A stretch of 37,985 nt of DNA from assembly GCA_017616445.1 (NCBI GenBank), contig JAFZYE010000045.1, positions 1 to 37,985 on the forward strand, given 5' to 3'. Origin of the DNA: Bacteroidaceae bacterium (GTDB lineage: Bacteria > Bacteroidota > Bacteroidia > Bacteroidales > Bacteroidaceae). The position numbers and the translations under genes are program-made. The notes under the pieces were generated by a model. That model saw only the letters and a program-made list of their open reading frames with translations. It had not been told where the DNA came from and made no database searches. Within the stretch, counting starts at the first letter, position 1. Each line of letters opens with the position of its first letter. This document shows, in pieces, positions 21,049-22,626 of this stretch.

Positions 21049-21140
21049 AGTTAGGAGTTAGAAGTTAGGAGTTTTTCGCTTTTCTCTCATCACTTTTCAC
21101 TCTTCACTCATCACTTTTCACTCTTCGTTTTTCACTTTTC
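21049..21140. repeat. Two adjoining period-7 tracts downstream of queF
   Basis: TTAGGAG/TTAGAAG units (about 21049-21070) are followed by units that read AGTGAAA, AGTGATG, AGTGAAG on the minus strand. The second tract runs into the end of queF: its last codons (REK) and TGA stop are part of the repeat pattern. Confidence 0.8.
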
Positions 21141-21599
21141 ACGAATGAGGTGATTCTTCATCCGATACTCTGCCAGCTGCTCATACTTAGTCCCTGGTCG
21201 TCCGTAGTTGGCGTATGGGTAGATGGAGATGCCGCCACGTGGAGTGAAGATGCCTGTCACTTCGATGTACTTGGGATCCATCAAACGGATAAGGTCTTTC
21301 ATGATGATGTTGACACAGTCCTCGTGGAAGTCCCCGTGGTTGCGGAAACTGAACAAATAGAGTTTCAGGCTCTTGCTCTCTACCATTCGTTGGTCGGGCA
21401 GGTAGCTGATCCGTATCTCTGCAAAGTCGGGCTGACCCGTGATGGGGCAGAGACTGGTGAATTCCGGACAGTTGAACTGTACCCAGTAGTCGTTCTCCGG
21501 GTGTTTGTTCACGAATGTCTCCAGCACCTCTGGTGCATAATCTGTCTTGTATTCGGTCTTACGTCCTAACAACTCCAGACCTTCTTCATTTCTTTCCAT
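21132..21599 (-). CDS. queF: NADPH-dependent 7-cyano-7-deazaguanine reductase
   Basis: A 155-aa short-type QueF that reduces preQ0 to preQ1 in queuosine synthesis. The catalytic Cys lies in [16 protein letters not shown] and forms the thioimide with preQ0; Asp in QPDF is the partner. The QueF motif [20 protein letters not shown] binds NADPH, and [20 protein letters not shown] is the conserved C-terminal part. It lies downstream of a VUT-family queuosine-precursor transporter on the same strand, with a 156-base gap holding palindromic elements. A preQ1 riboswitch candidate sits upstream of the transporter. The end of the reading frame lies in a heptamer tract. Confidence 0.97.
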
Positions 21600-21633
21600 A
21601 TTAAAAAAAAACTCTTATCAGACTCACCTCCAT

Positions 21634-21755
21634 GCCCCTCCCTGCGAGGGAGGTGAGTAGATACTTTTCTAATGGTTATGATTAGTCATTTTATGATTGT
21701 TCCGTTGATGGTAACCGCTCCCCGCCCTTATAGGGAGGGGTAGGGGGCGGGTCTG
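21634..21755. repeat. G/C-rich palindromes between the transporter gene and queF
   Basis: CCCCTCCCTGCGAGGGAGG near 21636 and CCCGCCCTTATAGGGAGGGG near 21723 are separated by a ~60-base A/T-rich stretch. The second sits immediately after the transporter stop (minus strand TAACAGACCCGCCCCC) and belongs to the same family as the element after pgk. Either could attenuate transcription into queF. Confidence 0.65.
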
Positions 21756-22511
21756 TTAAATTTGCTTAATCTTAAATGCATTATATGACACATCATCATC
21801 GTACACATCTGTACCCTCATGTTTCTTTACGTAGTTGACCACACGGATGGTAATCGGTAGCGCTACAATCTCGTATAGGGTCTTGGCTACTACCTGAGTA
21901 AGCATCAGACTGATTAGTACTTCGAACGGTACCTTGGGGGCTCCTTCAATCAGAGTAGGGAAGATGTAGAATGCCAAAGGGAAGAAGATGACAGAGTCGG
22001 CACTCTCGCCTACGATGGTCGATGCGACCGCACGAAGGGAGAAGTAGTAGTTCTTGTGCCCTTTGTTCCTGTTGGCCAGTTTCATCTTGCTCATCACCCA
22101 TGCGTTGAGGAACGAACCTACTACGAAGGCAATGAAGCTGGCAACAGTAATCTGAGGTGCGAACATGAAGATCTGACGGAATGCGTTGTCGCCTCCTGGT
22201 TCCAAAGGTGGCAGGAAACAGGCGATGGTACCCATTACGACCACGAAGAAGTTCATCATGAAGCCTGCCCAGATGATGAGTCGTGCCTTACGATATCCCC
22301 ATACTTCTGCGATGCAGTCGTTGAGGATGTAGGAGATAGGGAAAATGATAAAACCGCAGGTAAGCGACAGGTCGCCATACACACGAAACACCTTGGTCTC
22401 GAGTAAGTTAGATGTGATGAGGGCAACACAGAAGAGGATGCCCATCAGCATGAAGGAAACACTCACGGTTCCCTTCCTTTCCCCAGCGGGGAGAGTTGTC
22501 TGTTTTGTCAT
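21756..22511 (-). CDS. Queuosine-precursor transporter (VUT/YhhQ family)
   Basis: A 251-aa integral membrane protein with about six hydrophobic segments. It matches the YhhQ/QPTR family (VUT, formerly DUF165): FMLMGILFCVALITSNLLETKVF, then the signature FPISYILNDCIAEVWGYRKAR and later ADSVIFFPLAFYIF. It imports queuosine precursors (preQ0, preQ1 or queuine depending on member) across the inner membrane. The start is ATG 22511. An in-frame GTG at 22547 lies inside the proposed aptamer and would add 12 non-conserved residues, so it is rejected. queF lies downstream, giving a salvage plus reduction module. Confidence 0.92.
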   Translation of the reverse strand: MTKQTTLPAGERKGTVSVSFMLMGILFCVALITSNLLETKVFRVYGDLSLTCGFIIFPISYILNDCIAEVWGYRKARLIIWAGFMMNFFVVVMGTIACFLPPLEPGGDNAFRQIFMFAPQITVASFIAFVVGSFLNAWVMSKMKLANRNKGHKNYYFSLRAVASTIVGESADSVIFFPLAFYIFPTLIEGAPKVPFEVLISLMLTQVVAKTLYEIVALPITIRVVNYVKKHEGTDVYDDDVSYNAFKIKQI

Positions 22512-22516
22512 GATTT

Positions 22517-22549
22517 CTTGTTTTTTTTGCGTGGTTTTCAAGCACACGC
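22517..22549 (-). promoter_or_regulatory. Candidate preQ1 class I riboswitch
   Basis: On the minus strand, a 5-bp stem P1 (GCGTG 22549-22545 with CACGC 22533-22529) closes loop TGCTTGAAAAC. An A8 run (22528-22521) and CAAG (22520-22517) follow, and CAAG can pair with CTTG of the loop (P2), giving an H-type pseudoknot. The cytosine just 5' of the P1 3' strand (22534) occupies the place of the ligand-pairing C of known preQ1-I aptamers. The A-rich tail has the expected length. The pseudoknot ends 5 bases before the transporter ATG, so ligand binding would mask the initiation region. A CCCC...GGGG hairpin lies just upstream. Confidence 0.75.
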
Positions 22550-22620
22550 CCCCTTCTTGAGGGGAAGTTAATACTATTTAGCCCCCTCCGACTCCCCCGA
22601 GTGGGGGAGAGAGGAGAAGG
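22550..22620. repeat. G/C-rich palindromes upstream of the transporter
   Basis: CCCCCTTCTTGAGGGG (about 22551-22565) and CTCCCCCGAGTGGGGGAG near 22590 are short inverted repeats of the same style as those at 19709 and 21716. They lie between the esterase stop and the riboswitch candidate; the second could terminate readthrough from the esterase gene. Confidence 0.6.
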
Positions 22621-22626
22621 CTTCTT

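Follow-up and report, generated by a model that had tools for sequence, protein, structure and literature searches.

A probable preQ1-I riboswitch before a queuosine precursor transporter gene in Bacteroidaceae and tandem copies of the element in related Bacteroidales

Results

A preQ1-I-like aptamer directly precedes the start codon of the transporter gene

In the window (the whole stretch of DNA that was analysed, 37,985 bases) the leader of a queuosine precursor transporter gene very probably acts as a class I, type II-like preQ1 riboswitch. Judged from its sequence, it would turn translation of the transporter, and probably also of the following queF gene, off when preQ1 is plentiful. The complete aptamer of 33 nt occupies positions 22517..22549 on the minus strand, where the leader reads GGGG-GCGUG-UG-CUUG-AAAA-C-CACGC-AAAAAAAA-CAAG-AAAUC-AUG.

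The 5' strand of stem P1 (GCGUG, 22545..22549) and its 3' strand (CACGC, 22529..22533) form 5 bp, a pairing that shows covariation in relatives, and enclose a loop of 11 nt. This loop contains the U of L1 (22544), a G at 22543 between this U and P2, the 5' strand of P2 (CUUG, 22539..22542), L2 (AAAA, 22535..22538) and a cytosine at 22534, the expected partner of preQ1. Downstream of P1 follow L3, a run of eight A at 22521..22528 that corresponds to -10 to -17 from the start codon and is expected to dock in the P1 minor groove, and the 3' strand of P2 (CAAG, 22517..22520), which pairs with CUUG to close an H-type pseudoknot. A spacer of 5 nt (22512..22516) separates P2 from the ATG of the transporter (22509..22511), a placement that recurs in relatives. 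Direct reading bore out every element that the first-pass annotation had described: the 5-bp P1, the 11-nt loop, the A8 tail, the CUUG/CAAG pseudoknot and the ATG 5 nt further on.

When both strands of the window were scanned for this anatomy, a single place was found, and it lay on the minus strand. Outside the leaders of 80 related loci, the scanner found 31 places in 805,460 bases (strands counted apart), which corresponds to a chance expectation of about 0.003 per 77-nt leader; the anatomy in the window is above chance. The folding energy of P1 by itself is unremarkable and would not make the case (-6.6 kcal/mol, z -1.26; 22 of 200 shuffles were equally good). Immediately upstream, flush with P1 and without any gap, a further 5-bp hairpin is predicted from folding (CCCCU-CAAGA-AGGGG, 22550..22564, minus strand), and the two folded jointly gave -14.6 kcal/mol (z -2.41). 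A flush 5' hairpin with differing stem and loop sequences was found in all five relatives that were folded (L001, L003, L005, L021 and L022), and it is perhaps a coaxial stacking partner of the aptamer. By eye, a similar GC-rich hairpin just upstream of the aptamer was seen across L001-L006, L021 and L022. The window and its near relatives carry a single aptamer copy. A coding extension starting from the in-frame GTG at 22547 was ruled out, as leader length and copy number vary among relatives.

The gene behind the leader (21756..22511, minus strand) encodes a queuosine precursor transporter of the VUT/YhhQ family (TIGR00697, 109.2 bits, cut-off 50.95), and the next gene (21132..21599, minus strand) is queF, encoding preQ1 synthase (TIGR03139, 172.8 bits, cut-off 86.9). 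These matches confirm the transporter and adjacent queF that had been proposed at first reading. In related loci, a queF match was located downstream on the same strand in 71 of 77 cases, and a queC match 685-895 nt past the aptamer, also on the same strand, in 43 of 77. A transporter-queC-queF order is common in relatives; in the window queF directly follows the transporter. On both sides of the transporter, GC-rich intergenic inverted repeats of the CCCTCCC...GGGAGGG kind were noticed by eye at about 22578-22621, 21711-21755 and 21621-21658, and like repeats were seen upstream of the transporter orthologue in L001 and L004. These are perhaps a small repeat family.

The motif recurs before orthologous transporters and other queuosine genes

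The comparison set consisted of 80 loci, the best of 424 relatives of the transporter protein. The covariance model R1 was trained on alignment A2, which holds 24 distinct copies and does not include the window sequence. An earlier alignment of 44 copies (A1), in which tails and the longer L1 of Phocaeicola were misplaced, was set aside and supplied no counts. Applied to all 80 loci (424,577 bases, both strands), R1 gave 116 matches at E <=1, all on the transporter strand and in the transporter leader, a result that holds partly by construction as the model was trained on leaders of the same loci. A match preceded the orthologous transporter in 77 of the 80 loci. The contig of L030 ends before the leader, and in the two other loci without a match, L017 and L066, a variant motif with an AUAG/CUAU P2 was recognised by eye. 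The distance from the end of the last copy to the first ATG was 0-9 nt in all 77 loci, with a mode of 4 nt (36 loci), and this ATG opened the transporter frame in 76 of them (the exception is L008).

In the window's own genome (2.38 Mb) the leader was the sole significant R1 match (36.1 bits, E 7.6e-7), followed by a next best score of 15.1 bits (E 0.86). Among 151 genomes of the family, which were searched with stricter filters so that weak matches may be lost, 113 matches at E <=0.01 were obtained in 94 genomes. Nearly all of them (107) directly preceded a transporter match and together covered 94 of the 131 transporter places; the other six comprised one site before queC (G027), one before queD (G005), a strong match of unclear context in G117 and three weak ones. 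These three weak orphans (G136, G123 and G147, E 0.008-0.009) were put down to chance; the one in G136 lies beside a long open frame. The strong orphan (L188, G117:C42:84026-84055, minus strand; 38.2 bits, E 1.7e-7) is located about 14 kb from the transporter site and precedes a short ORF and a lipoprotein that resembles, by eye, a nucleoside hydrolase; a link to queuosine salvage or a displaced copy are both possible.

Across 395 genomes of the class, 10 had a match at E <1e-4, all of them in the window's order, and in two of these (G255 and G484) a second site was present before queC. A further class match, in G299 (E 2.5e-4), is located inside a long open frame and looks fortuitous. Of 247 genomes of the order, 36 had a match at E <=0.001. 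QueC was assigned by TIGR00364 (245.5 and 254.7 bits, cut-off 150.3) and in G484 by likeness only; the QueD assignment in G005 relied on TIGR03367 (97.8 bits, cut-off 89.25). With sites at transporter, queC and queD genes, the element marks the queuosine pathway.

Reading 15 leaders by eye from the 37 transporter places without an R1 match revealed a variant of the motif in eight (L192, L193 and L195-L200); no motif was seen in L194 and L202-L206, and L201 was doubtful. Several aptamers deviated from the common layout. A hairpin is inserted inside L2 in L040 (2459-2510), L198 has, by eye, a long insert in L3, and the aptamer of L018 (2408-2445) has a 19-nt loop. In Phocaeicola loci (L062 2489-2520 and others) L1 is two bases longer (UAUU) and P2 is CUAG/CAGG with one A-A mismatch; this P2 could extend into a GGA stretch. 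Two loci carrying the titles Roseburia sp. (L049) and Candidatus Mailhella (L074) have transporter leaders and genes of the usual Bacteroidales kind; misbinning of Bacteroidales contigs is the probable explanation. Many of the compared genomes may be metagenome bins.

P1 pairing and the unpaired cytosine are conserved

In alignment A2 (24 rows), 94.3% of cells were paired and covariation reached 0.208 against a shuffled mean of 0.064, a value that none of 500 shuffles reached. The covariation was abolished when the partners were displaced by 1 to 3 columns. The shuffles used here and in the tests below keep the relatedness among rows. When 76 distinct copies were parsed in a fixed register, 302 of 304 P1 cells were paired with 44 double changes (maximum 23 in 1000 shuffles), and 272 of 304 P2 cells were paired with 17 double changes (shuffle maximum 13). 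These counts are inflated and partly circular, as the scanner by which most of the copies were collected accepted only sequences with a paired P1, paired outer and inner P2 positions, an A-rich tail and a loop with U first and C last, and some copies were added by eye. One copy, the middle one of L024, resisted parsing and is absent. The scanner did not demand the identity of the P1 pairs or pairing at the two middle P2 positions. P1 occurred as CGUG, CGAG, AGUG, GGGG and AGAG, and one of the middle P2 pairs showed 14 changes from U-A to C-G, mostly in upstream copies.

The thinner P2 counts are offset by a test of P1 on an alignment made without regard to pairing. This alignment was anchored on AAAAC plus three bases with the ATG within nine more, and neither pairing nor the U or the specificity C was demanded. 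The anchor was found in 78 of 79 leaders (not in L065) and in the window; 71 rows were used, leaving out L017, L021, L022, L033, L040, L043, L048 and L049, in which the anchor lies further downstream or letters are missing. Four P1 pairs were present in 52 of the 71 rows and three in the common register in 18, and one row was misaligned. In the 42 distinct rows that remained with the longer-L1 rows set aside, P1 (CGUG, CGAG or AGUG) was 98% paired with 21 double changes, compared with a mean of 8.5 and a maximum of 13 in 1000 shuffles. The position of C22534, the base beside the 3' strand of P1 that the first-pass annotation had singled out, was C in 71 of 71 rows, and likewise in all 116 model-found copies. 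A missing covariance-model hit together with orthologue leaders that keep neither the pairing nor this C had been named there as evidence that would count against the riboswitch; the Rfam match stays below its threshold, but pairing and C are both kept.

For P2 the same alignment, which represents start-proximal copies, was nearly uniform (CUUG/CAAG) and gave 2 double changes with a shuffle maximum of 2. Compensating P2 types found in relatives are CCUG/CAGG, CUGG/CCAG and AUAG/CUAU, and imperfect types are CCAG/CCAG and CUAG/CAGG. On comparative grounds P1 and the specificity C are firmly supported and P2 more thinly, the case for P2 coming mainly from upstream array copies (CCUG/CAGG), from L066 and L015, and from homology.

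The predicted ligand pocket is that of class I, type II

According to PMC11625349, preQ1-I aptamers of type II have AC before the 3' strand of P1 and those of type I have UC, and the ligand is contacted by the specificity C, a G-C floor, U6 and an adenine of L3. The window aptamer has all four, the U at 22544 being the equivalent of U6. AC precedes the 3' strand of P1 in the window and in 69 of the 71 pairing-free rows, the other two having CC. The U of L1 was present in 115 of 116 model-found copies, the exception (L067) being a register slip. Together with the G-C floor and the final A of L3 it was found in 76 of 76 distinct parsed copies, most of which had been collected with this U demanded.

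The remaining hallmarks of type II, namely the P1 hairpin, the pairing of the loop with the 3' tail (P2, H-type pseudoknot; CUUG/CAAG in the window) and the queuosine gene context (the TIGR00697 transporter and queF here, queC and queD elsewhere), are likewise present. A type I aptamer, with UC before the 3' strand of P1 and a C inside the A tract, does not agree with AAAAC followed by CACGC and with the uninterrupted A8 of the window. Nor was the AAGG Shine-Dalgarno sequence of type III found in the 3' strand of P2, where the tail reads CAAG and then AAATC. By its sequence, the leader thus fits the type II ('AC') form of class I as it is structurally defined. What the first-pass annotation had called a class I preQ1 candidate is supported, with pairing and C kept, and is best called class I type II. 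PMC11625349 names Bacteroidota among the phyla with type I and describes the distribution of type II as similar, so finding preQ1-I in this phylum is in itself no novelty. In an older regulon study (PMC3766115) preQ1 riboswitches are described as mostly limited to Firmicutes.

The Rfam model detects the aptamer below its gathering score

A search with the Rfam PreQ1 model (RF00522) had been suggested at first reading as a check. It gave a match at the right site of the window, with a score of 16.6 bits that stayed under the gathering score of 39. At gathering scores, Rfam returned tRNA only across the window, and RF00522 had no match above its threshold in the window, in 20 of the 80 related loci or in 151 family genomes. 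In the latter, 14 sub-threshold matches were obtained, of which four lay in transporter leaders (G056, G092, G086 and G065), including the two best (29.6 and 26.1 bits). As sub-threshold matches fall at the right places, the missing above-threshold match was dismissed as evidence of absence. The gathering threshold is a detection limit and not a structural feature; the window aptamer is not filed under RF00522 as its curators delimit it. In 395 class genomes, one match exceeded the cut-off (G481, 50.7 bits); it is type I-like (UC) and located before a YhhQ-family transporter. Rfam matches with higher bit scores near the leader (Pab91 26.7, CRISPR-DR63 19.6, mir-320 19.2) were rejected, as they do not overlap the aptamer and are far under their own gathering scores.

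Relatives carry tandem arrays of the aptamer

Among the 80 loci, 16 leaders contained three copies, seven contained two and 54 contained one. Of the 23 arrays, 20 are kin and do not represent independent events. At 36 of 39 junctions the last G of P2 was directly followed by the first base of the next P1, the linker being 3 nt in two cases and 2 nt in one. P1 sequences of neighbouring copies differed at 37 of the 39 junctions; this alternation would keep neighbouring copies from cross-pairing, as expected of separately folding RNA helices. The start-proximal copy ended in CAAG in 22 of 23 arrays, the first copy of three in CAGG in 15 of 16, and the middle copy most often in CCAG (10 of 16). 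A transporter tree with 77 rows was made from the window and 76 of the R1-matched loci (all but L008); with 22 rows in the tandem state it called for at least three gains or losses, which rules out a single origin of the arrays.

In 66 of 77 loci the 150 nt preceding the first copy contained a -7 promoter box with the consensus TAnnTTTG (PMC7366714), compared with 5.7% of random stretches. In 19 of the 23 arrays the box was located 16 to 19 nt ahead of the first copy, so that the leaders of those mRNAs would be little more than aptamers. In the window no such box was found within 200 nt upstream, and transcription could begin at another place or extend from the upstream gene.

A survey from 2022 (PMC9481103), for which RefSeq 80 and environmental sequences were searched with Infernal, lists PreQ1-I, II and III in its Table 3 among the classes not found in tandem, and no report of tandem preQ1 arrays was found in the open-access literature, to which this statement is limited. 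Relative to that survey the tandem preQ1-I arrays in relatives are new; they were apparently missed earlier since the library model does not score them.

Discussion

Proposed mode of action

In the ligand-free state of the proposed switch only the P1 hairpin would form and the A-rich tail would be open. Binding of preQ1, which would pair with C22534 between P1 and P2, is expected to lock the CUUG/CAAG helix and to dock A8 into P1, so that a tightly folded pseudoknot would lie no more than 5 nt from the AUG. The A tract would have two roles, as L3 of the aptamer and as landing site of the ribosome, and docking would remove this landing site. Bacteroidota are described in PMC6847099 as lacking Shine-Dalgarno sequences and commonly having A-rich leaders. 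Translation initiation in Flavobacterium johnsoniae is promoted by adenines at -3, -6, -12 and -13, and bS1 is a possible reader of the A-rich stretch (PMC6847099). Of the 77 leaders, 75 had A at -12 and 71 had it at -13; the counts for -6 and -3 were 44 and 42. The A8 of L3 in the window, spanning -10 to -17, covers -12 and -13. As there is no Shine-Dalgarno pairing in Bacteroidota to hide, the expression platform is more likely the A-rich L3 and start region. The gap between P2 and the ATG (0-9 nt in relatives, 5 nt in the window) leaves no room for a terminator. Control at transcription or mRNA decay instead of translation is possible. In the arrays, the strand continues from P2 of one copy into P1 of the next, which would permit end-to-end stacking into one rod, and stacked arrays before one start codon may give a steeper, cooperative response.

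Alternative explanations

The same fold might respond to another 7-deazaguanine, preQ0 or queuine, or some copies, the middle ones with a CCAG/CCAG or CUAG/CAGG P2, might differ in affinity or ligand. YhhQ, the proteobacterial relative of the transporter, takes both preQ0 and preQ1 (PMC10622847), sites also precede queD and queC, the product of which makes preQ0, and the middle copies differ consistently in L1 and P2. We nevertheless consider a different effector improbable, because the pocket agrees, position by position, with that of preQ1-binding class I aptamers and because queF, which makes preQ1, lies downstream in 71 of 77 loci and renders preQ1 the natural end-product signal.

Another reading, in which a transcription factor of queuosine genes uses the inverted repeat as its DNA operator and RNA pairing is incidental, is highly improbable. 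A CGTG...CACG repeat near promoters, with the -7 box within 150 nt upstream in 66 of 77 loci, would suit such an operator, as would the thin P2 covariation beside the start codon. However, the letters of P1 change while its pairing stays (CGUG, CGAG and AGUG, also GGGG and AGAG), they differ between neighbouring copies at 37 of 39 junctions, and the spacing is tight towards the start codon (0-9 nt) and loose towards the promoter box (nearest 9 to 93 nt). Covariation of P1 and the invariant unpaired C also argue against a general A-rich translation enhancer that carries a fortuitous hairpin and binds no ligand, and so does the distribution, as a genome normally has a single significant leader that is almost always located at queuosine genes. 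Hence, we regard such an enhancer as scarcely credible, even though A-rich leaders are common in Bacteroidota (PMC6847099) and the folding energy of P1 by itself is not unusual. A preQ1 riboswitch remains our preferred reading of the leader.

Comparison with known systems

With the type II preQ1-I riboswitches of Thermoanaerobacter tengcongensis and Bacillus subtilis (RF00522), the proposed preQ1 riboswitch shares the H-type pseudoknot, the G-C floor, U6, the specificity C preceded by A, the A-rich L3 ending in A, the inner G-C pair of P2 and the queuosine genes downstream. The family of the window differs from them by scores under the Rfam gathering score in 151 genomes, by UG-CUUG/CAAG in L1 and P2, by the lack of a Shine-Dalgarno-like tail in the window, by the flush 5' hairpin in the window and close relatives, and by flush arrays in relatives. 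Type I (dual-ligand) riboswitches have the same fold, and the type I-looking match in G481 also precedes a YhhQ-family transporter, whereas the window has AC instead of UC and an A tract without a second specificity C. Type III, in the E. coli yhhQ leader, has in common with the window the transporter family and translational control, which in the window is presumed. Type III hides an AAGG Shine-Dalgarno sequence (PMC10622847, PMC11625349), whereas the window has none and its loop is longer. Like tandem glycine riboswitches, the arrays in relatives combine several aptamers with one expression platform, but they consist of pseudoknots with mostly 0-nt linkers and up to three copies.

Implications

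The chances are about even that the wider picture holds in full. This would be a branch of preQ1-I in Bacteroidales that is unseen by Rfam and uses its A-rich L3 as a landing site free of Shine-Dalgarno pairing. In several lineages, two to three linkerless, P1-alternating, rod-stacked copies would read preQ1 cooperatively via one start codon. They would be the first preQ1 riboswitches known in tandem and, among multi-aptamer switches, perhaps the most compact.

The class listed in PMC9481103 as not found in tandem, preQ1-I, thus occurs as tandem copies in many Bacteroidales of rumen and gut. As orthologous genes are naturally preceded by one, two or three copies, they provide a direct test of whether extra aptamers bring cooperativity. 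The leader is furthermore a clear example of what is probably a translational riboswitch from a phylum without Shine-Dalgarno pairing, and illustrates how gut bacteria, for instance Phocaeicola vulgatus (L062), probably sense queuosine precursors.
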